NCBI GenBank assembly: GCA_013288145.1
Contig: JABDCJ010000037.1
Span: 1-25,724, forward strand
Source of the DNA: Nitrososphaerota archaeon
GTDB taxonomy: Archaea; Thermoproteota; Nitrososphaeria; Nitrososphaerales; CADDZS01
Direction of reading: 5' to 3'
Length of the DNA stretch: 25,724 bases
Made by a program: the position numbers and the translations under genes. The notes beneath the pieces were generated by a model that saw nothing but the letters and a program-made list of their open reading frames with translations, did no database searches and had not been told where the DNA came from. This document shows positions 523 through 22,639 of the stretch, one piece after another (positions within the stretch are counted from its first letter, which is position 1; each line of letters begins with the position of its first letter).

Positions 523-1419
523 GTGTCAGGAAGTAAGAATAGTTTTAGAGGAATAATTCCCGCAGTCATAACTCCATTCACTGAAAAAAAAGAGACAGAT
601 CACGAAGGTTTGTCTGTCACTTTGAAAGGACTTTTGGAGCACGGGATTACTGGTTTTCTTATCAACGGAAGTACGGGAGAAGCTGCTACGCTTACTCGAG
701 AGGAAAGATCAGAAAATATTCGATCTGCAAGCATGATCGCGAAGGGACGTGCTAAAGTACTCGCTGGTGTTGGCTCGCCATCTACGACACAAGCAATACA
801 ATACGCAAAGGACGCTCAAGAGGCTGGTGCGGATGCAGTAGTTGCACTAACTCCTTACGATATCATACCCAACAAGGAGGGACTACTGGAATACTATAGG
901 GAGATTGCAAAATCGGTGAAGGTTCCTGTTATAGCTTACAATTTGCCCCAGCACACAGGTGTGAATCTGGGAGTCGACACACTCGTAAAACTGGTGAATG
1001 ATGGCGTCGTCATGGGAATCAAGGAAAGCAGTGGAAATCTTGCTAATTTAGCTCAGATGATCAAGGAGGTCGGCGAGAAAATATCTATCCTGACCGGGAG
1101 CGACGACCTAACTCTACAATCGTTTGTAATGGGCTGCTCTGGTGCAATACTTGCCCTCGGAAATCTTGCTCCGAAGCTTTGCGTCGATATGTTCGATTCA
1201 GTCCAGAGGGGAGACTTTGGAAGAGCTAAGGAATTGTATTACAAAGTTCTTCCTTTGGCTCAAGGTATAGGATCGCCCGAAAACTTTCCGGCTCCGATTA
1301 AAGAAGCACTAAAAATTCAGGGCAAACCAGCGGGCCCGTGCCGTTCTCCAGTGGTTCCAGTTAGTACTATGGAAAAGGAACAAATCAGAAAGGCCCTGGA
1401 ACATGCGGGATTGGTATGA
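523..1419 (+). CDS. Dihydrodipicolinate synthase/N-acetylneuraminate lyase-family aldolase (DapA/KdgA-like)
   Basis: A complete 298-residue class I aldolase of the DHDPS/NAL family, whose members are usually near 300. The phosphate/carboxylate-binding loop is GSTGEA (49-54), the catalytic tyrosine is in AYNLP (Y139), and the Schiff-base lysine is in MGIKESSG (K167). These enzymes join or split pyruvate and an aldehyde: DapA for lysine synthesis, KDG aldolase for sugar acids, NanA for sialic acid. No other lysine gene is nearby, and the divergent neighbour is a sugar-type oxidoreductase. A KDG- or sugar-acid aldolase role is therefore more likely than DapA, but this is inference. The GTG start is supported by GAGGT nine bases upstream and by the usual short N-terminus before the first strand (GIIPAVITPF). 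Confidence 0.88.
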   Translation: MSGSKNSFRGIIPAVITPFTEKKETDHEGLSVTLKGLLEHGITGFLINGSTGEAATLTREERSENIRSASMIAKGRAKVLAGVGSPSTTQAIQYAKDAQEAGADAVVALTPYDIIPNKEGLLEYYREIAKSVKVPVIAYNLPQHTGVNLGVDTLVKLVNDGVVMGIKESSGNLANLAQMIKEVGEKISILTGSDDLTLQSFVMGCSGAILALGNLAPKLCVDMFDSVQRGDFGRAKELYYKVLPLAQGIGSPENFPAPIKEALKIQGKPAGPCRSPVVPVSTMEKEQIRKALEHAGLV

Positions 1420-1511: not shown

Positions 1512-1619
1512 TTACCCATTCGCGCTTCGAGTCAAAATAACAGCGAGATCTAAATTCATCAGATTGGTTCCCGTCATACCAGTTATTATTTGATGACGAA
1601 GAATTTCTGACAGCTCAAC
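1512..1619 (-). pseudogene. Relict C-terminus of a MOFRL-family glycerate kinase
   Basis: Read on the minus strand, 1619 to 1512 encodes VELSEILRHQIITG followed by MTGTNLMNLDLAVILTRSANG and a TAA at 1514-1512. This matches the last residues of the intact kinase at 7362-8717 (LLRKLEDTIVTG, then ATETNVMDLDLAVVLR), including TG-x-T-x-TN and LDLAV. Nothing upstream in this frame continues the kinase. It is therefore an orphan tail of a second copy. Its TGTN is closer to the usual family motif than the TETN of the intact gene. Confidence 0.75.
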
Positions 1620-1712
1620 CTGTCGGGGTGAAAAAATTGCCCAGTTCAACCAGTTGCTAAGAATCGAGGAAGAACTAGGGGAAAGTATGCTGGGCTTGAT
1701 TTTCGATTTTAA
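1620..1712 (+). pseudogene. Relict C-terminus of an enolase
   Basis: On the plus strand, from about 1621 the frame reads CRGEKIAQFNQLLRIEEELG, nearly identical to the end of the intact enolase (RSERVAQFNQLLRIEEELG). A frame change near 1684-1686 then leads to YAGLDFRF and a TAA at 1710-1712, matching the YAGKNFR ending of enolases. The nucleotides differ mostly at third codon positions, so this is an old paralogue and not a fresh copy. It ends 10 bp before the convergent aminotransferase stop and abuts the kinase tail at about 1620. Confidence 0.75.
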
Positions 1713-1722
1713 GCGTAGAACG

Positions 1723-2874
1723 TCAAGCGGCTGACTTGATTCGAGGAACCCCGATTGGCTTCCTGCCGGTGTACTTGCCCATCACCTCACTCACGTTAGC
1801 GAGAGCTTCCTCCACGATTGCCGGAGGATGACAGTAGCACATCCTGAGATATCGATCTCCGTTTTTCAAGTCAGGGAAACAGTCGTCGCAAGGAATGACC
1901 GCGATCTTCTTCTCCTCTAGAAGTTTCCTACAAAACTCGTTAGAGGGTATCTCTAATTCGTGGCGAACTAGAGCGATAACTCCAAACTTGGGTTTGTTAT
2001 AGCTCACGATTCCTTCATTTTGCCGCATCCAGCGATCAAATACATCAAAACTTTCGCGTACTAACTTTCGTCCGCGATCAATGAATTTTTGTCTCATGTC
2101 CCTATGTAAAACTCGAGCCGCAAGTTCTTCAGAGAGAACCGAGCCACCAAGAGTTGTATACTCTTTGTATGCCGAAGCTTTTTCGATCATGTCTTTGGAA
2201 CCCACGACCCAGCCTACGCGCAAACCCGCCAGCCCGAAAACCTTGGAGACGCTGCTTGAGACGAGCGCCTTATCATAGAACTCTGCAAACGACGGAGAAA
2301 ATGGACCGTCGAACTCAATACCTCTATAGACTTCGTCAGCTATGATCCACGCATTTGCGATTTCACAAATGGCCCTCACTTGTGATTTGTCAAGTACTCG
2401 TCCTGTAGGATTATTCGGATAGTTGAAAGCGAAGACCTTGATCTTGCTAGTAACCGCTTCATTGAACTTGTCAATATCAAATTCAAAACCATTCTCGGCT
2501 TCGAGGTAATACTTGTGAATTCTGACGCCATTGGCTTCGACTAGTCCCGGAATCTGCATGAAGGAAGGCACCTGGATCAAGACCTCGTCACCGTTGTTTA
2601 CCGCTAAGTTCGTTAAGATCATATTTGATTCCGAGGTGGAACTGGTTACTAGAATATTCTCTTTATCCAGACCCGAATAGAGTTCGGAAATTTCACTCCT
2701 CAGTTGATCATTTCCATAAATTGAAGCATAATCCATCCTCAAATCAAGTAAGTCTTCTGAGAAAAATTCACGCAAGCGTAGTGGTTCAGGAATTCCAGTC
2801 TCGGTCAAATCGGTTACCCCGGGAATCACTCTCTTTGCCTTCCACCGTTCTAATTCAAAGTCTGGAATTTTCAA
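1723..2874 (-). CDS. PLP-dependent aminotransferase, class I/II
   Basis: A 383-residue fold-type I aminotransferase, normal in length. Visible motifs are the NNPTG substrate/cofactor loop (154-158), D180 in ADEVY, the PLP lysine K211 in SSSVSKVFGLAGLRVGW, and a C-terminal arginine (YLRMCYC) placed to bind the substrate carboxylate. It should move amino groups between an amino acid and a 2-oxo acid in the cytosol; the substrate cannot be read from the sequence. The start is TTG at 2874, preceded by AAAGGGG about nine bases upstream and a TATA-like box near 2911. No ATG lies close to the N-terminus. The next gene upstream on the same strand is an amino acid permease starting at 4588, suggesting shared use in amino acid catabolism. 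Confidence 0.88.
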   Translation of the reverse strand: MKIPDFELERWKAKRVIPGVTDLTETGIPEPLRLREFFSEDLLDLRMDYASIYGNDQLRSEISELYSGLDKENILVTSSTSESNMILTNLAVNNGDEVLIQVPSFMQIPGLVEANGVRIHKYYLEAENGFEFDIDKFNEAVTSKIKVFAFNYPNNPTGRVLDKSQVRAICEIANAWIIADEVYRGIEFDGPFSPSFAEFYDKALVSSSVSKVFGLAGLRVGWVVGSKDMIEKASAYKEYTTLGGSVLSEELAARVLHRDMRQKFIDRGRKLVRESFDVFDRWMRQNEGIVSYNKPKFGVIALVRHELEIPSNEFCRKLLEEKKIAVIPCDDCFPDLKNGDRYLRMCYCHPPAIVEEALANVSEVMGKYTGRKPIGVPRIKSAA

Positions 2875-5933: not shown

Positions 5934-7223
5934 TTACATAGCAGATCTAAAGTTCTTGCCTGCGTATTTTGCCGAGGCGCCAAGTTCTTCTTCTATTCGA
6001 AGGAGTTGATTGAATTGTGCTACTCTTTCGCTTCTTGCCGGGGCGCCGTTCTTAATTTGGCCGGCGTTGATAGCGACTGTGATATCGGCGAGCCAACTGT
6101 CTTCAGTTTGGCCTGATCTTTCTGACACAAGAACGCTGTACCCATGTTTAAAGCAATAAGATGCGCTCTCAAGAGCTTCAGTAAGTGTTCCGACTTGATT
6201 CACTTTGAAAAGGAGACAGTTAGCAGCTCCCATCTCAACACCCTTTGCAATCCTGGTCACATTTGTGACGAAAAGATCGTCTCCGACTATTTGGATTGGT
6301 AAGTGGCGTGTGATTTCGACAAATCCCGCGAAATCATCTTCGTTGAAGGGATCTTCAATTGATTGGAGAGGGTAATTCTTCGCGAGGCCCTCGTAAATGT
6401 CCAAGAGTTGCTCCCGCGACAACTCTTTTCCAAGATATTCGTACTTTCCAGTCTTCATGTTGTAAAAGTGACTAGCCGCAGCGTCCATTGCAAGTATGAA
6501 ATCGTTTTTGTATCCAGCCTTATCTATCGCCAAGAGTATGATTTCGTAAGCTTCGGCGGGCTCTTTTAATCCCGGCGGCGAGAACGATCCTTCATCCCCG
6601 GTATTGAGAGAGTATTTACCATATTTCTTTGCGAGAAGCTCTCCTAGAACATGGTAAACTTCCGAACCCATTCTCATCGCTTCAGAAAAGGTCTTTGCCC
6701 CTATTGGCATCGCGTTAAATTCTTGGAAGACAAGATCGGTTGCAGCGAGTTTTCCTCCACATATGTAGAGAAACATAGGAACTGGAAGAATACTCGCATT
6801 TGATCCTCCAATATATCTGTAAAGTGGAATCGAAAGCGAATTTGCCGCAGCTCTCGCAGCTGCAAGAGATGTCGCAACGGTTGAGTTTCCACCAAGATTG
6901 CTCTTATTGGATGTACCATCAAGTTCGACCATTAGGCGATCGATTTCTCGCTGAGAAGTAACATCGATGCCTTTCAGAGCCGGAGAAATCTTTTCGTTAA
7001 CGACTGAAACGGCTTTGCGCACTCCAAGACCACGATACCGATCTTTTTCAGTTTCGTCTCGAAGTTCAAAAGCCTCGTACTTGCCTCGCGATCGGCCAGC
7101 TGGAACATCGGCCCTCCCAAGAATACCGTCTTCAGTCAACACATCAACTTCAAGTGTGGGATCTCCCCGACAATCAAGAATTTCCCTCCCCCTAACTGAT
7201 TTGATTTTAAGCATCGTCTGCAA
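5934..7223 (-). CDS. Enolase-like protein with altered active-site residues
   Basis: A 429-residue full-length enolase homologue: REILD-CRGDPTLEVDV at the N-terminus, then FQEF (E168), GDEGS (E211), MDAAA (D247), SIEDPF (E290), VGDDLF (D315), FKVNQVGTLTEA (K340) and GQIKNGAP (K391). These keep the three Mg ligands and the base/acid pair that turn 2-phosphoglycerate into phosphoenolpyruvate. Other near-invariant positions have changed. The mobile GASTG loop is GRSRG (43-47), the GGxHAG histidine is leucine (L159 in CGGKLAAT), and SHRSGET is SERSGQT (E368 replaces the second histidine). It may be a diverged paralogue acting on another substrate rather than the housekeeping enolase. Start is TTG 7223 with GGAG eight bases before; ATG 7214 is an alternative. 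It is divergent from the glycerate kinase-like gene, and a relic of the same pair lies at 1512-1712. Confidence 0.85.
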   Translation of the reverse strand: MQTMLKIKSVRGREILDCRGDPTLEVDVLTEDGILGRADVPAGRSRGKYEAFELRDETEKDRYRGLGVRKAVSVVNEKISPALKGIDVTSQREIDRLMVELDGTSNKSNLGGNSTVATSLAAARAAANSLSIPLYRYIGGSNASILPVPMFLYICGGKLAATDLVFQEFNAMPIGAKTFSEAMRMGSEVYHVLGELLAKKYGKYSLNTGDEGSFSPPGLKEPAEAYEIILLAIDKAGYKNDFILAMDAAASHFYNMKTGKYEYLGKELSREQLLDIYEGLAKNYPLQSIEDPFNEDDFAGFVEITRHLPIQIVGDDLFVTNVTRIAKGVEMGAANCLLFKVNQVGTLTEALESASYCFKHGYSVLVSERSGQTEDSWLADITVAINAGQIKNGAPARSERVAQFNQLLRIEEELGASAKYAGKNFRSAM

Positions 7224-7330
7224 TTTTGAACTCCGTCAAAAATTATGATCTATTAGTAATATGCATTAGTAGCCAGCTTTTGGCCGAACATTTGGGGGTA
7301 CGAAAGGAAAACTTGGATTTAATACTACGG

Positions 7331-7351
7331 CTTGGGAGGATATTCCCCAAG
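7331..7351. promoter_or_regulatory. Inverted repeat in the leader of the glycerate kinase-like gene
   Basis: CTTGGG (7331-7336) and CCCAAG (7346-7351) flank a short centre containing GGAGG. A TATA-like TTTAATACT lies just upstream (about 7317-7325), so the repeat is near the predicted transcript start, 10 bp before the ATG at 7362. It could be an operator or a hairpin covering the GGAGG. Confidence 0.4.
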
Positions 7352-7361
7352 TTTTCCCTAG

Positions 7362-8717
7362 ATGATCATAAAGAACACTAGTGAGCTTCTCAGCCACGGC
7401 AATTATCAGTCAAGGAACCTTTGTATCGAGCTTATCGAAACGGCGCTGCATTCAGTTGATCTCTTCAAAGAAACAAAACGCAATATTCGAATTAGAAATA
7501 ACTTCTTGATTGCAGCCGGAAAAAAATATGATCTATCGAAACTTGATCGAATATTTGTTGTTGGAGGAGGTAAGGCAACCTTTGCCATCGCAAAGGCACT
7601 AGACGAGAAATTACAAAACAGAATTACTAATGGTATTGTTTCAGTAAAGAAGGGAGAAAAAAGAAGGCTAGATCACATCAATATTATCGAATCTGGACAC
7701 CCAGTTCCCGATAAGAATAGTCTAGAGGCCGCCTCAGCAATCTGCAATCTGACTAGTGACTCTACCGACCGCGATCTCTTCATTTGTGGAATTACAGGTG
7801 GTGCGTCATCGCTTATGGTCGCCCCCTGCGATGGGATTTCTTTGTCAGATAAAATCATGGTTAATGAATTGCTCCTCAAATCCGGAGCACCAATCAACGC
7901 AATCAACAGTGTGCGTAATCACCTTTCAAAAATCAAAGGCGGCAACCTGGCTCGTCTGATCCACCCCGCAAAAATTCTAAACCTCATTGCAATCGACGAG
8001 ATCGAAGGGTTACCATGGGGCCCCACAGTTCCTGATAGAACTACTTTTGACGATTCAGTCAGTGTTTTGAAAAAATACAACTTGTGGAAGAAAATGCCTA
8101 ACAGCGTGAGAACTTATCTTAGCATAGGTTTGAAAAATAAAAAACCTGAGACTCCGAAAGACCGCGACTTGAAAGATACGGAGATACAAAACATCGTCTT
8201 GGCCAGCAACGAAAAGATGCTTGATGCTGTGCATGCAAGAGCCAAGAAGCTTGGTTTGAACGCAGCAATACTTTCCTCCAAAATCGAAGGAGAGAGTAGC
8301 GAAGCTGGCAAGGTCTTCGGTAGCATCGCAGCCGAGGTTGGGTCAAGAGGTCGACCCTTTAAGCCGCCATGCGTCCTGATCGCGGGGGGCGAAACAACCG
8401 TAAAAATAGATAATGGAAAGGGAAAAGGAGGGCCTAGCCAAGAATTCGTTTTAGGTGCAGCTTTAGAGATTTGCAATAGTAAAAAAATCGCAGTTGCATC
8501 AATAGATACGGATGGAACGGACGGGCCGACTGAAGTGGCTGGTGGAATCTGCGACAACCTTACGGTTGGCAGGATTGCCAAATTAAATGAGGATATTATA
8601 AGCACTCTAAACAGGCATTATAGCTACCAACTTTTAAGAAAATTAGAAGATACAATTGTTACAGGAGCGACTGAAACTAACGTGATGGACTTAGATCTCG
8701 CTGTCGTTTTGCGTTAG
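7362..8717 (+). CDS. MOFRL-family glycerate 2-kinase-like protein
   Basis: A 451-residue protein with the two-part architecture of GckA/TtuD-type glycerate kinases: an N-terminal DUF4147 region and a C-terminal MOFRL region. Motifs include VVGGGKATFAIAKAL (catalytic lysine), ESGHPVPD, an ISGGGSAL-like GITGGASSL, SVRNHLSKIKGG, GPTVPDRTTF, then in MOFRL GGETTVKI, GKGGPSQEF, DTDGTDGPTE and TGATETNVMDLDLAVV. Relatives transfer phosphate from ATP to the 2-OH of glycerate, giving 2-phosphoglycerate, the enolase substrate. Departures from the usual pattern are VRNHLS for VRKHLS, EGLPWGPT in place of the longer SDVxGDDxxxIASGPT segment, and TETN for TGTN. It is divergent from the enolase-like gene with 138 bp between starts, implying joint regulation. 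Exact substrate is uncertain. Confidence 0.83.
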   Translation: MIIKNTSELLSHGNYQSRNLCIELIETALHSVDLFKETKRNIRIRNNFLIAAGKKYDLSKLDRIFVVGGGKATFAIAKALDEKLQNRITNGIVSVKKGEKRRLDHINIIESGHPVPDKNSLEAASAICNLTSDSTDRDLFICGITGGASSLMVAPCDGISLSDKIMVNELLLKSGAPINAINSVRNHLSKIKGGNLARLIHPAKILNLIAIDEIEGLPWGPTVPDRTTFDDSVSVLKKYNLWKKMPNSVRTYLSIGLKNKKPETPKDRDLKDTEIQNIVLASNEKMLDAVHARAKKLGLNAAILSSKIEGESSEAGKVFGSIAAEVGSRGRPFKPPCVLIAGGETTVKIDNGKGKGGPSQEFVLGAALEICNSKKIAVASIDTDGTDGPTEVAGGICDNLTVGRIAKLNEDIISTLNRHYSYQLLRKLEDTIVTGATETNVMDLDLAVVLR

Positions 8718-11892: not shown

Positions 11893-13158
11893 TTAGGCCG
11901 TCCTTGGAGATAGCTTGGATATCGCCTTTGCAATCCTGTCGATGGCTTCTTCATTCCTCTCTGTCTTCAAGGAGATTCTAATGTGATCGTCAGCTTTGTC
12001 AGAGATTCCAGGATCGCACGCTACGTGAGCCTCTTTCAATAGATATTGACAAAACTCCATTGAGCTCATCCCAAAGGACGAAATATTTGGGAAAAGAAGG
12101 TTCGTCCCTTCGGGTTCAACTATTGAAACACCTTTCAGTGATGATAACTTTTGCATTGCATAATCACGTCCCTTTTGCAGTATTCTGACTGTATTTCTAA
12201 CGTAATTTTCTTCAAATTCCCTCGTTAAGATACCCATCGCCCCCCTTTGCAGAATTACGGAAACTCCTCCACTGGATGACCCATGGAGTATCGAAATGCC
12301 TCGGGTGACGTCAGGTGGAGCAATGGAGTAGCCGAGTCTGTAGTTTATCATGTTGAATAGTTTCGAAAAAGATGTAGCTGTAATTAACCTGTCATGGACC
12401 TCTTTGATTCCCGCCATTGGAATGTACGGTCTGTTATCATAAACTAGTCGCTCGTAAACTTGATCATGCAATATGAACAAGTTGTATTTGATAGCCAGTT
12501 CAGCGATTCCTGACAGCTCGTCTTTTGTTAATACCCTTCCAGTCGGATTGTCAGGATTGCATAAGATAATCATTCGAGTTTTTCGAGTTATTTTCTTCTC
12601 AATTTGATCCTTGAAATGGTAATATTTCTTGGACGGATCGATTTTATAGAACACAGGCTTTCCACCCGCGAGCCTTACTGCACGATCAAAGCTAAAAGAA
12701 GGAGTTGCCATCACCACTTCGTCGCCTGGATTTAACACAGCTCGAATTGCGTGAAATTCAGCTTCGAAACTCCCGGAAGTGACCACCACGTGTTCTTTCC
12801 AATCGACCTTCTGTCCATAAACTCGAGTGAATCTCGAAGCTATCTCTTTCCTGAGCTCGGGAAGTCCATTCATTGGAGGAACTTCGTGTGAAGCAGCTTC
12901 AGCGAGGTTATCAGAGGTAGTCTTTAGAGTAAAGTCCGGTGGGCGAGTTGACATTATACTTTCAGCGCAGAAAATCACATCTTTTCCTTTAGCGGCTAAC
13001 TCGTAGGCTGATTCTAATATCACAAACATAGCATAAGGCGAACCCGTCTTCCATACGCCTGGTCCCAAGCTCTGCCTTTCGCTCTGATCCATTTCAGCCT
13101 GAACGGTGTCTGATAATCGACTTTCCCTTTTAGGCGGCTCCAGTTGTTTTGTTTGCAT
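11893..13158 (-). CDS. PLP-dependent aminotransferase, class I/II
   Basis: A 421-residue fold-type I aminotransferase. It shows the cofactor loop SGSFEAEFHAI (128-138), NPDNPTGR (201-208), HDQVYERL (231-238) and the PLP lysine K266 in TSFSKLFNMINYRLGY. In HDQVYE the usual DE-x-Y glutamate is glutamine, a conservative variant; the aspartate that contacts the pyridine nitrogen is kept. An N-terminal extension of about 35 polar residues precedes the fold. It is clearly distinct from the aminotransferase at 1723-2874. It diverges from the RidA gene. RidA removes reactive enamine/imine products of PLP enzymes, so co-location makes functional sense. The ATG at 13158 has a TATA box at leaderless distance. 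Confidence 0.87.
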   Translation of the reverse strand: MQTKQLEPPKRESRLSDTVQAEMDQSERQSLGPGVWKTGSPYAMFVILESAYELAAKGKDVIFCAESIMSTRPPDFTLKTTSDNLAEAASHEVPPMNGLPELRKEIASRFTRVYGQKVDWKEHVVVTSGSFEAEFHAIRAVLNPGDEVVMATPSFSFDRAVRLAGGKPVFYKIDPSKKYYHFKDQIEKKITRKTRMIILCNPDNPTGRVLTKDELSGIAELAIKYNLFILHDQVYERLVYDNRPYIPMAGIKEVHDRLITATSFSKLFNMINYRLGYSIAPPDVTRGISILHGSSSGGVSVILQRGAMGILTREFEENYVRNTVRILQKGRDYAMQKLSSLKGVSIVEPEGTNLLFPNISSFGMSSMEFCQYLLKEAHVACDPGISDKADDHIRISLKTERNEEAIDRIAKAISKLSPRTA

Positions 13159-15698: not shown

Positions 15699-16811
15699 TT
15701 AAGTTGAGGCTCGTCCGATCGGGAGAATTCCTCTGACGTTTTCCCGGGCAAACTTTAGTTTCGTGCCTAGCTCTAAGCGAGATCCATGCTCGTGCAGGAT
15801 CTTCCACCTTCCAACTATTCTTAAGCATACAACAGTAGCTCTAGTAATTATACTATCGCGGTTATTCTCCCTATTTGTGTATGAAATATAAAATGTGGTG
15901 AGAGCCATTGAACCAACGACTTGAATCCGCAAGTCAAAAATCGTCGCAGAGTAGCGTGGAGCCATCGAGTAGAACCACTCTCTGTCATTTCTGCGTGCCT
16001 CTTTTCCGTCCAGTCTTCGCAAAGGCGGGACGTCGTTAAAAGAGCAAAACCCTGATTCATATGCATGCATGTCCGCAAAGGAGTCAAAATCACCTTCCAG
16101 GGGAAGAACTATTTCTTTTTCCAAGAGTTCCTGAATAGCTCTATGATCGGCATTGTTGGATAATCGCCCTAAGGGGTATTTTTTCGGGGATTCTTTTCCA
16201 AACCAGCTTCGGAGTCGTTGAATAACCCGCTGCAGTTCTCTAACGGACAGATTATCGTTTACAGTCATACGAAGGGCCATACGTCTTGAACTCTGATCCT
16301 GAATTTGAGCAAGAACCCTCGCGTGATGCTCGGATATCTTGTGGAGATCCAAAGCCAACTCTTTGTCGTGCAAGAGTGTGGATTGATCAAAGAGCTCGGT
16401 CATTCTCACGTAATTGCAAACATGTGATTTACTATAACCGGCTGACCTTCCAATCTCTTCATACGTTTCGTGGAATTCTTTATTCATTCTAGAAAAGGCG
16501 AGTCCCTTCTCGTAGTCCGTTAGGGCATGCCTGGAGTCATTTTCCGCATAGGAAAGTTCAAGCATTTTTTCGTCGGGGCAGGAGCTAACCTCAGCTGCGA
16601 TTGTCTTCCAACTAAGTAAAAGCGCGGCTCTGAGGCGAGCGTGCCCATAGATTAGCTGGTACCGATTTCCAACTTTGCGAACTCTGATAGGTTCCAATAA
16701 GCCATGCTGAGCGAGCGACCTTGCGAGTTTTCTTATTTCAGACTCTCTGTAAACAATTCTTGAATTAAACGGGTTCTCGTCTATTAGCTCGATTAGAAGC
16801 TCGTCAATCAA
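15699..16811 (-). CDS. ParB/RepB-like protein fused to a C-terminal SnoaL/NTF2-like domain
   Basis: A 370-residue protein. Residues 5-90 are a ParB N-terminal domain (ENPFNSRIV, then IRKLARSLAQHGLLEPIRVRK, and YGHARLRAA at 55-63, the ParB nucleotide-binding box). ENDSRHALTDYEKGLAF (90-106) is the second ParB box, and YEEIGRSAGYSKSHVCNYVRM (117-137) is the DNA-binding HTH. Instead of the usual dimerisation tail, residues about 240-350 resemble a SnoaL/NTF2-like fold: YESGFCSFNDVPPLRRLDG, VVGSMALTTFYISY, then TRATVVCLRIVGRWKILHEHGS, which matches the family's GrWkivHeHxS ending. No ParA gene is nearby. TTG 16811 fits with a TATA box about 30 bp upstream. It may be a partition protein or a ParB-type transcription factor. 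Confidence 0.82.
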   Translation of the reverse strand: MIDELLIELIDENPFNSRIVYRESEIRKLARSLAQHGLLEPIRVRKVGNRYQLIYGHARLRAALLLSWKTIAAEVSSCPDEKMLELSYAENDSRHALTDYEKGLAFSRMNKEFHETYEEIGRSAGYSKSHVCNYVRMTELFDQSTLLHDKELALDLHKISEHHARVLAQIQDQSSRRMALRMTVNDNLSVRELQRVIQRLRSWFGKESPKKYPLGRLSNNADHRAIQELLEKEIVLPLEGDFDSFADMHAYESGFCSFNDVPPLRRLDGKEARRNDREWFYSMAPRYSATIFDLRIQVVGSMALTTFYISYTNRENNRDSIITRATVVCLRIVGRWKILHEHGSRLELGTKLKFARENVRGILPIGRAST

Positions 16812-17297: not shown

Positions 17298-17864
17298 GTG
17301 TTTTCGGTGATAATTGTTACGAAAGAAGATGTAACAGCTACCCGTCTGAAAGAAAAACGACTAGAGTTGGGAAAAACAGTCGGAAGAGTGAGTGGAAGAA
17401 GACCTCGAACATTCGGCAAGAGAAGGAAACAACTCATTAGAATTGTTTCTACAAAGTCTCCGTCCTGTTCTTGTCTTGAAATACCCATATTGCAGACACT
17501 TGCGGAGGCCCCGGGTGGATGCCTTCCGTCATCTGAAGTAATTAGGGCGCTCTTTGTAGCAAACAAGTGGTTCGATCATGAATTAAGTGACGACGATCTA
17601 GCTGGACGTTATCCCCGCTCGAAGCGCCTAATTCACGAAATCATCACTCGATTCTGCCGGGAGAATCTCGTTCTCAAGCAGGAAATGGCTCCCCCGGGGA
17701 TTCGGCCCGGGGAGTGGAGGATTACCGAAAAAGGACGAGAGCGGCTCCAGAGAGCTGAAGTAAGTCTGTGGCGCCCCAATTATGTCGAACATTGCGGCGC
17801 CGTAATTCTTGAGGATGATCCCGATTCAGATGGGATGACTAGCGAAGGAGTGGACCAACTATGA
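17298..17864 (+). CDS. Winged-helix DNA-binding protein, Mrr N-terminal-domain-like
   Basis: A 188-residue protein, not assigned to a characterised family. Residues 14-50 are strongly basic (RLKEKRLELGKTVGR, RRPRTFGKRRKQ). Residues about 61-150 resemble the winged-helix domain found at the N-terminus of Mrr restriction proteins: IPILQTLAEAPGGCLPSSEVI, a helical middle, and GEWRITEKGRERL as the wing. No nuclease domain follows; the tail is acidic. The GTG start at 17298 is uncertain, with another GTG at 17307. It precedes the RHH gene by 15 bp on the same strand, so the two are probably one transcript. This looks like a regulator of a mobile element rather than a restriction enzyme. Confidence 0.6.
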   Translation: MFSVIIVTKEDVTATRLKEKRLELGKTVGRVSGRRPRTFGKRRKQLIRIVSTKSPSCSCLEIPILQTLAEAPGGCLPSSEVIRALFVANKWFDHELSDDDLAGRYPRSKRLIHEIITRFCRENLVLKQEMAPPGIRPGEWRITEKGRERLQRAEVSLWRPNYVEHCGAVILEDDPDSDGMTSEGVDQL

Positions 17865-17879
17865 GAACGCGGATCGCAA

Positions 17880-18344
17880 ATGAGTGGAGTAGAAGCTTCC
17901 GCGGGCGTACTATGCCAATTCTTGCGTGCACGACATGTAATGCATTACTACAACCATACGGAGCTTGATCAACCGGTGAAAGTTAGGTTTACGCACGCAA
18001 TCAACTTCCGGGAAAGCGACAAATCCTTGCTTGACGACGCCATAGCCGTTTCGAAGGAAGAAAGTATCAATTTCACGAACCTCGCCCGACGCGCAATCGC
18101 AGAATACGTAGGGGCGAGAAAGAAGCGCAAGGCGAGCGGAGAGAATGGAAAACTCGAGGACTATTTGAACGGCTTGTCAAGTGGAAAGACTGGCTCATAC
18201 CCTTCCATCGACTATTTGCTCACCCCGCAAGAGCTTGCCAACTGGAGTGATGAGGACTTGTGGCGCCTGGCTCGGCAATTGAAGGGGAGGAGGGAAGAAG
18301 TAGAGTCCGCCCTGCGAAAACGGGGTTTTTTCGTTCAATGGTGA
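17880..18344 (+). CDS. Ribbon-helix-helix (CopG-like) DNA-binding protein with a conserved C-terminal motif
   Basis: A 154-residue protein. Residues about 33-78 fit a ribbon-helix-helix domain: a short strand (VKVRFTHAINF), helix one (SDKSLLDDAIAVSKEES) and helix two (FTNLARRAIAEYVGARKK), ending in the A-I-x-E-Y pattern of RHH repressors. After a flexible Lys/Gly/Ser linker comes a second module (113-154, TPQELANWSDEDLWRLARQL to GFFVQW) shared with the small ORF at 16962-17105. RHH dimers usually bind operators as autorepressors or antitoxins; no toxin partner is recognisable here. ATG 17880 follows the winged-helix stop by 15 bp. An in-frame ATG at codon 21 would still keep the RHH domain. 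Confidence 0.6.
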   Translation: MSGVEASAGVLCQFLRARHVMHYYNHTELDQPVKVRFTHAINFRESDKSLLDDAIAVSKEESINFTNLARRAIAEYVGARKKRKASGENGKLEDYLNGLSSGKTGSYPSIDYLLTPQELANWSDEDLWRLARQLKGRREEVESALRKRGFFVQW

Positions 18345-18420
18345 ATTTCAAAATGGTTACGTCCGTTAGTTGCAAAACTCTTTCGACCTTTTGCTCTCCC
18401 CGTTGAATCATTAGTCCGAT

Positions 18421-18954
18421 CTATCGATGAATTTCTGTTCCTCCCTCTAACCTCTCAATCATCCTCCTTACGGCATAGCTAAGCACTTCAGCCTTCGTGG
18501 ACTCTTCCGAAGGGTCCTGGTTCATATCTCTCCAGTCGAAATCCGGATCTTCCTCCAGCGCTTCCGCTATTTCGCCGGTTAACTTGTCCAGAACGTCGCC
18601 GACTCCAACCGCGCCAATCACATCGTTCTGCCCGAGCCAGCCCTCCTCGTACAAAAAGCCCACCATCTCGAGCGACCTATCCGCTATCCTCTGCACAACT
18701 TCCCAGCAATCACCGTTGGCGAGCGCGGAGCGCTCATCGGAATTGGCAAAGCCGCGTCCTCGTCCCAGCCCGACGACATCTACTACCCGGATGTCGTTCA
18801 CGAAAGTCTCGGGGTGAAAACTCTTCTCAGGCGTCTGCTTCCCGCAAAGCGGACATTTCACAGATAGAGAACCGGTCAAATGCAGGTCAAACTCTCCAGG
18901 GGCGCTCTCTGCGTGCGGGGCGCAACTCGCACTGCACGACACCCGTGCAAGCAA
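18421..18954 (-). CDS. Uncharacterised acidic protein with an N-terminal zinc-binding cysteine cluster
   Basis: A 177-residue protein I do not recognise. Cysteines C7, C11 and C34/C37 (SCSASC and KCPLCGK) look like a zinc ribbon. The rest is acidic and helical (LTGEIAEALEEDPDFDWRDM, then STKAEVLSYAVRRMIERLEGG), possibly an interaction domain. The only start in this frame is TTG 18954. Yet a perfect AGGAGG lies at 18983-18988, followed by an ATG at 18979 in another frame. Loss of one T in the TTTT at 18953-18956 would join that ATG to this frame, so the true start may be 18979 with a one-base indel. It converges on the RHH gene, and its upstream region carries the 18-bp palindrome. Confidence 0.55.
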   Translation of the reverse strand: MLARVSCSASCAPHAESAPGEFDLHLTGSLSVKCPLCGKQTPEKSFHPETFVNDIRVVDVVGLGRGRGFANSDERSALANGDCWEVVQRIADRSLEMVGFLYEEGWLGQNDVIGAVGVGDVLDKLTGEIAEALEEDPDFDWRDMNQDPSEESTKAEVLSYAVRRMIERLEGGTEIHR

Positions 18955-18994
18955 AATCGGCTGGACGTTCCGCGATCATGGACCTCCTATGCTG

Positions 18995-19012
18995 TAATAG
19001 GCTAGCCTATTA
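18995..19012. promoter_or_regulatory. 18-bp perfect palindrome, probable operator
   Basis: TAATAGGCTAGCCTATTA is fully self-complementary with no spacer. It lies between the divergent zinc-protein gene and the HTH/coiled-coil operon. It overlaps a TATA-like ATTAATA reading toward the minus-strand gene and sits 7 bp from that gene's AGGAGG. This is the expected position for a repressor dimer to block transcription. Confidence 0.6.
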
Positions 19013-19037
19013 ATGGAATCGATTTTTTCATACTTAT

Positions 19038-19161
19038 TTGACCACCCTGTAGTCTTTCTGACCGGAAACTGACCAACGCCTGCGTTCCTTTCTGACTGCC
19101 GCCCGCATCAAATGACAAAACAACGTCAACCAGATTGACCACTTGACCGGCTGGTCTGACC
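19038..19161 (+). repeat. Cluster of six YTGACC repeats (iteron-like)
   Basis: TTGACC or CTGACC occurs at 19038, 19058, 19069, 19135, 19143 and 19156, all on the plus strand; several continue as CCG or CCA. About 0.06 copies would be expected by chance in this length. The cluster lies between the palindrome and the TATA-like element (about 19175-19184) of the downstream operon. Spacing is irregular, so it may be a regulator-binding cluster rather than a classical origin. Confidence 0.5.
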
Positions 19162-19174
19162 GATCACCGTTGGG

Positions 19175-19184
19175 TGTAAATAGC
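19175..19184 (+). promoter_or_regulatory. TATA-like box of the HTH/coiled-coil operon
   Basis: TGTAAATAGC lies about 40 bp before the ATG at 19219, predicting a short leader of about 10-15 nt. Confidence 0.4.
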
Positions 19185-19218
19185 AGACACTTGCGAGGAA
19201 TAGATCCCAAGACCCGCC

Positions 19219-20121
19219 ATGCCGCCTCGAATCGAACCTGAGCTTCGGACATCCATAATCAGGCTTCGCCTTCGGGGCTACGGGCGGAACGAAATCTGGC
19301 GGCAATTAAGGGGCTCGAGGGCAACTTTGAGCCCGGCGAGCGTCGGCAATGTGCTTGGGGAGTTTATGGATTTTGCAAGAGAAAAAGGATCAAGACAGGC
19401 GGCGAAGGAATTCGGATTGGAATCAGTAGAAATTGACGAGTTGCTGGCGATCGCAGATTACGCCAGAAAAAACGGCGTCGCTCCTCCGGAGATGGGGCAG
19501 GGCGCGAGGATTGCAAAAAATATCAATTCCCTCGCCGTCGACCCGCCAACTGTAGAAACGTTTGCCGGCGAAATCGCTGGAGCCGTTCGAAACGGGCGCG
19601 TCAAAGATGGGAAAAAATTCATCGACAATTGCCTGGAACTCGATCGCCTGGCGAAGAAGTACAACCTCGATTATGATAAACTTCTTCAGAAGAACAACGA
19701 GCTGGGAACAGACCTCGAGAAAAAGGAAAAGCGGGAAAAAGACCTTGATGACGAAATCAAGGCAAAGACCGACCAACTATCTGGGCTGAAGAAAAAATAC
19801 GATATCGATGAGAATAGAGGGAAGGAGTACGACGCGACAAAAAAGCAACTTTTGAATCTCGGTCTGGACGCCGAATCTCTGACAAAGTACGGGAAATTCC
19901 TCACCAATGTGGCTGAGTTGAATTATGACCCCAAGAAGGCGATCGGCTCGCTAAACGTGGTTGATGACATCAAGAAGCTAGACGCAACAAAATCGACCGT
20001 CGAAGGAAAAGTCTCGGAATTTGAAAAGCGTCTCGAATCTTTGGACAAGGATCTCGAAAAGGCAAATGACGTCCTAAAAGATGCGAAAGAACAGTTCGAC
20101 GCAAAAAAAGGTAGAGATTGA
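19219..20121 (+). CDS. HTH/coiled-coil protein, first part of a probably frameshifted gene
   Basis: A 300-residue frame. Residues about 8-50 form a transposase-type helix-turn-helix (SIIRLRLRGYGRNEIWRQLR, then SPASVGNVLGEF). Residues 50-135 are a helical middle domain. Residues about 140-300 are Lys/Glu-rich coiled coil (TDLEKKEKREKDLDDEIKAK, KVSEFEKRLESLDKDLEKAN). The frame ends just after an A7 run (20102-20108). With six A's the reading would continue straight into the next frame as DAKKVEIEAY, giving one protein of about 496 residues. HTH plus long coiled coil is an architecture I associate with uncharacterised thaumarchaeal proteins of mobile regions; a DNA-bridging or segregation role is only a guess. 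The YTGACC cluster lies directly upstream. Confidence 0.7.
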   Translation: MPPRIEPELRTSIIRLRLRGYGRNEIWRQLRGSRATLSPASVGNVLGEFMDFAREKGSRQAAKEFGLESVEIDELLAIADYARKNGVAPPEMGQGARIAKNINSLAVDPPTVETFAGEIAGAVRNGRVKDGKKFIDNCLELDRLAKKYNLDYDKLLQKNNELGTDLEKKEKREKDLDDEIKAKTDQLSGLKKKYDIDENRGKEYDATKKQLLNLGLDAESLTKYGKFLTNVAELNYDPKKAIGSLNVVDDIKKLDATKSTVEGKVSEFEKRLESLDKDLEKANDVLKDAKEQFDAKKGRD

Positions 20122-20710
20122 AGCCTACTCACGCGCTCGATCAAGGGGGGTGAATGACGAGTCAATTCTTCGATGGGACAGAATCATAACCCAAGCCAAA
20201 CTGCCCTCAGGGGTTGTCGAAGGCGAGCTCATAAGGGCCAGATCCCTCGAAGAATCGATCTCGCAAAAAAATAAGGAGGTGGAGACCCTCGATAAAACGA
20301 AAGCTTCGCTCGAGTCAGCGGTCTCGACTCTTGAGAGAAAACAGTCTGAGCTTGACGTATCGCTCAAAGCGATCGGGGAAAAAGCGGTGACCGCCCTTGA
20401 TGAGAAAATCGTGGCTCTTGGAAAGACTGTTGACGAATACTCTCAGCGCTTGTCTGAGGGCGCGCGGTTCGAGGAGGAGCTAAAAATCGCGAGGCTGGTT
20501 AGTGCGATCACGAAATATCCTGGTGAGGCAAGAGGTTATCCGCTTAGTTGGGCGCTTCTCTTGGTCGAGACCGCCAGGAAGCTCTGCGCGTTAAAGGCGG
20601 TTGATCCGTACATTCACCAGGCACCCTCGGAGCACACCCTTCTCAACTTTCTAGACTCAGCGATAAAGTCGCTTACTGAAAAAATAGGGGAAGAAGGGAG
20701 AAATCAATGA
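20081..20710 (+). CDS. Coiled-coil protein, probable continuation of the preceding gene
   Basis: A 209-codon frame that overlaps the end of the previous one by 41 bp, in the +1 frame. Its first ten codons are out-of-frame sequence of the upstream coding region. Real protein seems to begin at VEIEAYSRARSRGVNDESIL, just after the A7 run. The body is coiled coil (SISQKNKEVETLDKTKASLE, STLERKQSELDVSLKAI), followed by a globular end (about 150-205, YPLSWALLLVETARKLCALKA). If translated on its own, the GTG at 20150 preceded by GGGGGG is a candidate start. It is more likely the second half of one 496-residue protein, split by a sequencing indel, real decay, or slippage. Its stop overlaps the next start as ATGA. 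Confidence 0.6.
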   Translation: MRKNSSTQKKVEIEAYSRARSRGVNDESILRWDRIITQAKLPSGVVEGELIRARSLEESISQKNKEVETLDKTKASLESAVSTLERKQSELDVSLKAIGEKAVTALDEKIVALGKTVDEYSQRLSEGARFEEELKIARLVSAITKYPGEARGYPLSWALLLVETARKLCALKAVDPYIHQAPSEHTLLNFLDSAIKSLTEKIGEEGRNQ

Positions 20711-21621
20711 GCCTGGAAGCAATTGACAGGTACCTCTCTGAGCTAAATGCGGTAAAGAACTACGACAATGTCATACGCGAGCGCGACACCGAACGAAGCC
20801 GCGCGGCCGCCCTCGAAAAGAAACTAGAAAAAAGTGACAAGACGATCAGCGATCTAGAGTCCACGCGCTCTTTTCTTCCAACGGGCAAGACGCTCGGCGA
20901 GGCGCGTAGCGAGTTCCTCGCGAGCAAAGAAGAGGAGATCGCCAAGAGGGTAGACGTAAAGTTCGAGCGCCTGCGCTCCGAGTGGGAAAAAACCGCAAAG
21001 CCCGATGAGGTCAAAAAGGCAGCGCTAGGGATGCTCGCTTCGGTCCTTACAAGCATGAGCGGCACTCACGAATACTACGAGTCCGAGATCGAAAAGAGTG
21101 GTCTGCCGGACCAGGTAAAGTCTGCAATCGAGGGGCAGGTGAGGAACCGTATGGATCAAGAATTTGAAAAGAGGGTGGATGAGAAAGCGAACAAGAAAGC
21201 CCAAGATCGACTGGACGAACTCATCGATTCAGAATGGCCCAAGTTCTTGGCGGAGAAAGTCACGCCGAAGGCTGAGGCTCTAGAGCAAGGAATATCTGAA
21301 AATCTTTTCCGAATCCTTGCTAGCACTACCTGGACGGTGACTTGTGACAAGTGCGGCACTGCTCAGGGTCGAAGACTCGCTGCCGCTGAGGTCTCTGCTT
21401 TGCTCGAGAGACGCGCTCTCGAGATACAGTGCTCCAACCCCGAATGCACCGATTGGCCCCTCGGCAGACATAGATTTTCGGTAACTTTATCCAATCTTAT
21501 TCTGGGTTTGATTGTTCGAGAGGAGGATGCGGAGGTATCTCAAACTTCCCTTATCCCGAGAAAAGAGCCGAAAAAAACTCGCCCCAAAAAATCGGGCGAC
21601 AAGGGTGCAGTGAAAAACTAG
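20707..21621 (+). CDS. Coiled-coil protein with a C-terminal zinc ribbon
   Basis: A 304-residue protein. Residues 15-60 and about 75-195 are charged helices (VIRERDTERSRAAALEKKLE, then KVDEKANKKAQDRLDELIDS-like stretches). Residues about 209-262 hold a zinc ribbon with C213/C216 (CDKCG) and C242/C247 (CSNPEC). A basic tail (RKEPKKTRPKKSGDKG) could contact nucleic acid. The ATG overlaps the previous stop in an ATGA, so its translation is probably coupled to the coiled-coil protein; the two are likely partners in one complex. I do not recognise the family. The coding sequence is richer in G+C than the catabolic genes (for example 20761-20820 is about 63%). Confidence 0.7.
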   Translation: MSLEAIDRYLSELNAVKNYDNVIRERDTERSRAAALEKKLEKSDKTISDLESTRSFLPTGKTLGEARSEFLASKEEEIAKRVDVKFERLRSEWEKTAKPDEVKKAALGMLASVLTSMSGTHEYYESEIEKSGLPDQVKSAIEGQVRNRMDQEFEKRVDEKANKKAQDRLDELIDSEWPKFLAEKVTPKAEALEQGISENLFRILASTTWTVTCDKCGTAQGRRLAAAEVSALLERRALEIQCSNPECTDWPLGRHRFSVTLSNLILGLIVREEDAEVSQTSLIPRKEPKKTRPKKSGDKGAVKN

Positions 21622-21639
21622 CGTAAGATAATGAGATTC

Positions 21640-21951
21640 TCAGTGAACTGTTGCAACTGTGTGAGAAATTTCTAAGAGCGAACTCGCTGTTTGATTTGTT
21701 CGTGAACCGCCGCTGACTAGAACTGTCGAGAGAAAGAAACCGTCGCGTGTGATAATCGAAAGAATATTTAGCGAGTCAATCGTTTTTGAATGGATGTTTT
21801 TCACCGCTCCGCTAAAATCATCACCGGTAAAACTCTCACCATACGCAATGTTTGACGAGATCAGATAATCTTCTTTCTCAAATCCAGCGAAGTGCATTAG
21901 TTGAAATTCTTTGAGATAAACGTGCCTCCACGATGTCATCTTCTCATTCAT
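21640..21951 (-). CDS. Hypothetical 103-residue protein
   Basis: A complete frame from ATG 21951 to the stop at 21640, convergent with the zinc-ribbon gene (18 bp between stops). It has mixed hydrophobic and polar composition, no signal peptide, no membrane helix and only residues of ordinary abundance (NIAYGESFTGDDFSGAVKNI, then SLNILSIITRDGFFLSTVLV). There is no family I recognise. It is listed because it is the only long frame here, but it could be spurious or decayed. Confidence 0.35.
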   Translation of the reverse strand: MNEKMTSWRHVYLKEFQLMHFAGFEKEDYLISSNIAYGESFTGDDFSGAVKNIHSKTIDSLNILSIITRDGFFLSTVLVSGGSRTNQTASSLLEISHTVATVH

Positions 21952-22135
21952 GCTCTCCGCTCGTCAATTCCGAGAACAAGAGGGATTTTAGTAAATTGAA
22001 TTATTTTCGCCCAAATTTCGGGTCCTCTGGATGGCATTTCGAGTCTTACCAAAAATTAGAGCCGCTAATATCCCTTTTAACCTGCTCGACATTCGAAATC
22101 TACTCAGTATATCATCTGAAAGAAACAGGGTAAGA

Positions 22136-22639
22136 TCAACTTGCGACGAAATGATCAATGTTACTTTTCAGCTCGCGAAGTTTATCTCCCCAAAAAAATC
22201 CTTCGTTCACCGGCTCTAGTCTAATCAAGAAATCCTTTGTTATCATCAGTATGTCATTTGCAATCCCTATCGTTTCAGGTATGGTGAATTTTTCGGAAGG
22301 TTCGCCAGTTCTATTGACGCCCAAATGAAGAATCTGGTTATTGACTTTCTCCCAAAATGTTTCCGTGATGTTTGTCGCAAAATCTGGCTTGCGAAAATCT
22401 GTAACAAACATATTGGCTCTCGGATGCTCACGGGGATTCTCTCTTCGTTCAAGTCTGAAATAAAATTCGTATAGTACTCTCGAATGAAGAAGTGTATGTT
22501 CCAAGCCCATATTGACAAATGCTTGAACCAAATTTGAAGGAACTCGACCTTTGTAAATTTCTTTGCAATTGGCAAGTTCGATGACCTCGTATGTAAAATG
22601 ATTGTTGATGATGTCCTTGAGCCTTTCTTGACCGATCAA
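22136..22639 (-). CDS. Hypothetical protein with an LHSRxLxEFYF motif
   Basis: A 167-residue soluble, helical protein. LEHTLLHSRVLYEFYF (about 46-61) and later WEKVNNQILHLGVNR resemble a family of uncharacterised bacterial and archaeal proteins carrying HARNLxxFF followed by an N-x-x-I-x-HL-x-x-x-R segment. The function of that family is not known to me. The only start codon in frame is TTG 22639. However, the frame stays open for 25 more codons up to a TAA at 22715-22717 (QVTVISHEATISAFSSEWHY reads like protein) without any ATG, GTG or TTG. The gene may therefore have lost its true N-terminus. The base composition is A+T-rich, unlike the element that precedes it. Confidence 0.5.
   Translation of the reverse strand: MIGQERLKDIINNHFTYEVIELANCKEIYKGRVPSNLVQAFVNMGLEHTLLHSRVLYEFYFRLERRENPREHPRANMFVTDFRKPDFATNITETFWEKVNNQILHLGVNRTGEPSEKFTIPETIGIANDILMITKDFLIRLEPVNEGFFWGDKLRELKSNIDHFVAS

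Follow-up and report, generated by a model that had tools for sequence, protein, structure and literature searches.

The 303-bp spacer (1420-1722) between an aldolase gene and an aminotransferase gene, in the 25,724-nucleotide stretch of archaeal DNA analysed here (referred to as the window), holds the decayed C-terminal ends of two genes that point away from each other and meet at a sharp junction: a MOFRL-type glycerate 2-kinase on the minus strand (1512..1619) and an enolase on the plus strand (1624..1712). With good confidence, these are the relic of a second divergent kinase/enolase pair, probably an old paralog or one gained by transfer, whose interior was lost, most simply by one deletion. 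An intact pair of the same two families occupies 5934-8717. Its enolase (5934..7223, minus strand) scores 522 bits with TIGR01060 (cut-off 300); its MOFRL glycerate kinase (7362..8717, plus strand) matches PF13660 and PF05161, as well as two NCBIfam glycerate 2-kinase models, both below cut-off; the two genes are divergent and 138 bp apart. The relic lies between the 3' ends of two convergent genes, both of which face it: on the left a DapA/DHDPS-family aldolase (523..1419, plus strand; PF00701 E 8.6e-73; TIGR00674 240 bits against a cut-off of 206) and on the right a class I/II aminotransferase (1723..2874, minus strand; PF00155 E 1.6e-47).

The enolase tail is located by tblastn and by a C-terminal profile, and spans about 28 of 429 residues. 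In a tblastn search of 1420-1742 it is identical to the window's own enolase at 18 of 29 residues (E 5e-10, plus strand), and the best six-frame local score for enolase in the 303-bp spacer is 92, against a maximum of 51 in 1000 dinucleotide shuffles. The strand and the end point, here a TAA stop codon (1710-1712), are those of the initial annotation, which placed the tail at 1621 to 1712, but recognisable homology begins only at 1624. The reading frame is broken after the codon that closes the motif ...ELG at 1680, where 2 nt replace three codons of the homologues (a net deletion of 7 nt); beyond the frameshift the tail reads KYAGLDFRF and then stops. Third positions differ from the intact gene at 13 of 19 codons and residues at 3 of 19 (NG86 Sd 15, Nd 4), which bears out the earlier statement that the differences are mainly silent. 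Similarity over part of the gene's length, combined with a disabling frameshift, makes this tail a pseudogene remnant. That the spacer is instead a functional element fashioned from gene ends (terminators, a small RNA or a small protein) is very unlikely: the tail does retain 16 of the 17 columns that are conserved at ≥95%, when residues before and after the frameshift are counted, but the frameshift itself speaks against such a role, as does the finding that the spacer contains no start-to-stop open reading frame of ≥60 amino acids in the ORF list.

The kinase tail, also located by tblastn and a C-terminal profile, has the coordinates and strand first assigned to it (1619 to 1512, minus). Its recognisable homology ends at 1619, and about 29 recognisable residues are followed by a 6-residue extension and a TGA stop codon at 1514-1512. 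These 29 residues are what remains of ~451, so that >90% of the gene is missing. Identity with the window's own kinase is 15 of 28 residues (tblastn of 1420-1742, E 6e-7, minus strand), and the best six-frame local score is 70, compared with a maximum of 53 in the same 1000 shuffled versions of the spacer. The tail departs from four of the ten columns conserved at ≥95%, and over 28 codons it differs from the intact copy by Sd 13 and Nd 19 (NG86; pS 0.65, pN 0.30), so that the changes are less markedly silent here than in the enolase tail. Judged by its partial-length similarity and its lost constraint, this tail, too, is a pseudogene remnant.

The C-terminal profiles represent the last 45 positions of 120 kinases and 119 enolases, none of them the window's. 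Applied to all six frames, with the intact pair masked, they match the relic at E 7.9e-8 (kinase) and 1.2e-11 (enolase); the next-best matches are at 0.48, elsewhere in the window, and at 0.51, the latter being the terminus of the relic itself past the frameshift. Full-length profiles also rank the relic first, at E 6.2e-8 for enolase but at only E 0.0015 for the kinase. A single reversed-sequence decoy gave a best E of 0.27. With the intact pair masked, the profiles find no further fragment of either gene elsewhere in the window, and the full-length profiles find no displaced interior of the pair there. The suggested translated and profile search of the spacer region has thus returned significant matches for both tails, and the proposal that two C-terminal tails lie between the aldolase and aminotransferase genes is upheld by tblastn, by the shuffles and by profiles free of the window's own proteins.

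The junction (1620..1623) consists of ~4 nt that belong to neither tail, its bounds being the limits of homology. The tails point outward from it, and both end at stop codons near the usual end of their families. Their layout is that of the intact 5934-8717 pair, inverted, as the initial annotation had correctly described. What is missing by comparison with the intact pair amounts to 421 kinase codons, ~396 enolase codons and the 138-bp spacer, which add up to ~2.6 kb. The history originally put forward, a second copy of the pair with an interior of ~2.5 kb deleted and the ends joined at ~1620, is supported as the simplest one (at ~2.6 kb); the idea that this second copy was a plain duplicate of the intact pair is probably wrong. 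A search of the flanks past the relic's stop codons against the flanks of the intact pair found no similarity. An inverted repeat of 5 bp that spans the junction, seen by eye, is taken as chance.

Compared as DNA, relic and intact copies share best stretches of 43-50 bp at 72-79% identity. These values bear on the alternative that the sampled genome contains an intact second pair whose interior was dropped by metagenome assembly or strain mixing. The record is short (just 25,724 bases), which leaves some room for an artefact of this kind, but the two copies are too unlike for an assembler to confuse them, and the tails are themselves damaged, by the 7-nt net deletion and by a D to H replacement and other losses at conserved columns. 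An assembly artefact is therefore very unlikely, and a genuine loss is preferred.

The substitution counts in both tails (enolase Sd 15, Nd 4; kinase Sd 13, Nd 19) argue that the two copies of the pair diverged for a long time. The initial annotation went further in holding that both copies were long under selection; constraint is clear for the enolase and less clear for the kinase. Synonymous sites between relic and intact copy are near saturation. A recent inverted duplication of 5934-8717 was considered as the source of the relic and is rejected on this divergence together with the kinase tree and the approximately unbiased (AU) test described next.

The relic kinase tail is identical to P0002, a kinase from another source, at 20 of 29 residues, as against 15 of 29 for the window's own copy, and a tree that joins the relic, on its 29 residues, with 14 of the 121 kinases places it as sister to P0002 (support 91). 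Six placements of the tail, all resting on those 29 residues, were compared by AU and SH tests. AU rejects the tail as sister to the window's copy (p = 0.041), for which SH gives p = 0.079. In all, AU p values of 0.03 to 0.04 reject four placements: as sister to P0001, to the window's copy or to the two together, and at the base of the clade. A position outside the clade withstands the AU test (p = 0.106), and by SH none of the six is rejected (p 0.063 to 0.13). The motif LAV[IV]L occurs within the last 20 residues of only three of the 121 kinases, those of the window, P0001 and P0002, and the relic has it too. On the enolase side, the relic fragment groups with P0134, outside the window's clade, with a support of only 54 (15 of 120 enolases), too little to fix its position. 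FRF is found in the last 12 residues of only P0122 and P0123 among the 120 enolases and is absent from the window's own; the relic tail has it, beyond the frameshift. Since the relic kinase is nearer to P0002 and its sisterhood with the window's copy is rejected by AU, an old paralog or a xenolog is the probable identity of the lost pair, rather than a mere duplicate of the intact one. The P0123 enolase, from a sequence labelled Nitrososphaerales archaeon, is 86% identical to the window's; the closest enolase in a genome that was searched is 72% identical and belongs to G739, of the same class as the AmoA-bearing G261. On these grounds the window would probably come from a lineage related to Nitrososphaeria. 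A search with the 400-452 region of P0002, in which 20 candidates were scored, returned P0002 alone; neither P0001 nor even the kinase of the window came up, so the search is insensitive and no proof of absence.

Kinase and enolase genes are neighbours in other Thermoproteota as well. Loci L001-L150, 80 of them from a kinase scan and the rest from kinase, enolase or other queries (picked by similarity, and so no census), contain 21 distinct pairs, spread over 18 other genomes of Thermoproteota, a pair being defined as kinase and enolase within 1.5 kb, each matched over ≥150 residues. Nineteen of the 21 are co-directional and two divergent. The kinase precedes the enolase in one pair each in 11 genomes (G001, G002, G029, G035, G037, G069, G217, G281, G288, G364 and G428) and in five pairs of a more distant type (one each in G742, G745 and G748, and two in G751); the enolase comes first in G739, G748 and G751; the divergent pairs are those of G381 and G874. 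G751 has three separate pairs (L133, L136 and L150) in two gene orders, with enolases 66, 49 and 39% identical to the window's, and G748 has at least two (L134 and L137). The 80 loci of the kinase scan, mostly bacterial, were those kept when contigs were scanned with a 30-kinase alignment (a single kinase as query found no loci); 11 of the 80 have an adjoining enolase, nine bacterial and two archaeal. Kinases L091-L096 (42-46% identity, from the class of G001) have no enolase partner in the stretch fetched around them, nor is there a partner in the fetched stretch for kinases L139 and L143-L148 or enolases L083, L084, L123, L126, L127, L129 and L130; the stretch around such partnerless loci was often 1.5 kb per side or ended with the contig. 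The earlier assertion that kinase and enolase travel as a unit is borne out as regards their linkage, with 21 pairs in 18 genomes, and not as regards the divergent layout, 19 of 21 pairs being co-directional.

The window's own divergent layout recurs among the 18 genomes only at L107 (G381) and L128 (G874). At these two loci the kinases share just 54% and 40% identity with that of the window, and a divergent arrangement may therefore have arisen more than once. Because that arrangement is rare (two of 21 pairs), a divergent ancestor at the relic's position is suggested mostly by the intact pair. The prevalence of co-directional pairs (19 of 21) also lends something to the view that the tails are separate remnants brought side by side by several events (independent losses, inversions, insertions), as does the affiliation of the kinase tail with P0002 when the enolase tail has no firm place (support 54). 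But two tails ~4 nt apart, directed outward and with stops near the usual family ends, are just what would remain of a divergent pair after one deletion, and the identical divergent layout survives 4 kb away. A juxtaposition by several events is accordingly unlikely, and loss from within one divergent pair is the reading adopted here.

Among the relatives, no intact second pair was seen at the relic's position in any of the loci examined. When 25 open reading frames of the window were compared with L001, L002, L107-L113 and L131-L135, enolase and kinase alone matched at E ≤ 1e-4. The aminotransferase has matches at E ≤ 1e-60 in six of 398 genomes of the phylum, at 35-40% identity, with at most four candidates scored per genome. 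In G314 (L116, L151; G314:C195, 1581-3399 of L151 for the two genes together), a distant aminotransferase homologue (34%) adjoins a weak oxidoreductase match on the opposite strand; this oxidoreductase is 29% identical over 116 amino acids to the window's partial oxidoreductase at 2-409. The 8.7-kb contig of G314 has no aldolase, kinase or enolase match. For that reason, the G314 locus differs from the relic's neighbourhood, and it was set aside as a candidate for the same one.

The history that would account for the relic can be outlined as follows. A second divergent pair would once have stood in 1420-1722, its kinase reading leftward and its enolase rightward, related to but distinct from the pair at 5934-8717, either as an old paralog or as a transferred copy; that both genes were complete at this site is inferred. 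The shared promoter region and both gene bodies would then have been lost, most simply in one deletion of ~2.6 kb, which would have joined the last ~29 codons of the kinase to the last ~30 of the enolase at 1620-1623. The tails would by now be drifting without function. Presumably, the lost copy was redundant with the surviving pair, which would serve the same conversion of glycerate by way of 2-phosphoglycerate to phosphoenolpyruvate. The pattern of decay fits a long-lived pair of genes whose function was lost later. Gene decay of this sort is commonplace; the one unusual feature is that a single junction seems to have truncated both members of a divergent pair.

The rest of the window offers some context. 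For the aminotransferases at 1723-2874 and 11893-13158, a GntC cyclodehydratase model is one of the best NCBIfam matches, though at 245 and 226 bits it falls well short of its cut-off of 415. An M19 dipeptidase, an amino acid permease and a peptide-binding protein are also encoded, and the gene content, with two aminotransferases, suggests a region for the use of amino acids or peptides. A ParB-family protein (15699-16811; TIGR00180 above cut-off) is encoded on this archaeal contig, and beyond its gene all seven of the open reading frames tested in 17298-22639 are without a Pfam match at E ≤ 1e-3.

Some 200 bp of archaeal spacer can thus be taken for the scar left by a vanished pair of genes, and glycerate kinase and enolase would seem to be linked so closely that they can be copied, and lost, jointly. 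A broader proposal can be offered tentatively, at somewhat less than even confidence: that in Thermoproteota the two genes make up a module that is mobile or has been duplicated repeatedly, with as many as three divergent copies in a genome and three different layouts, and that is gained and lost whole, the relic being one such loss after a long coexistence of two copies. The relic serves more as a pointer to this pattern of several enolase/glycerate-kinase pairs per Thermoproteota genome than as evidence of a new mechanism.

Pseudogene remnants in the intergenic spacers of prokaryotes are of a known kind (PMC522871). As in such remnants, the pieces in this spacer are disabled, are recognised by protein similarity and combine a frameshift with truncation; unlike those, the relic has two genes of one functional pair seemingly truncated at a shared junction. 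The MOFRL (class II) glycerate kinase of Thermoproteus tenax serves the non-phosphorylative branch of the Entner-Doudoroff pathway (PMC2063504). The window's intact kinase belongs to the same family, and the product of the T. tenax enzyme, 2-phosphoglycerate, is the substrate of enolase. The sections of the T. tenax study consulted here report MOFRL kinase genes clustered with pyruvate kinase and do not describe an enolase neighbourhood (PMC2063504). The pairs of Bathyarchaeia and other Thermoproteota (G001, G035, G428 and others) bring the same two families together as the window does, but mostly in co-directional order with the kinase first, whereas the window's intact pair is divergent, as its lost pair would have been.
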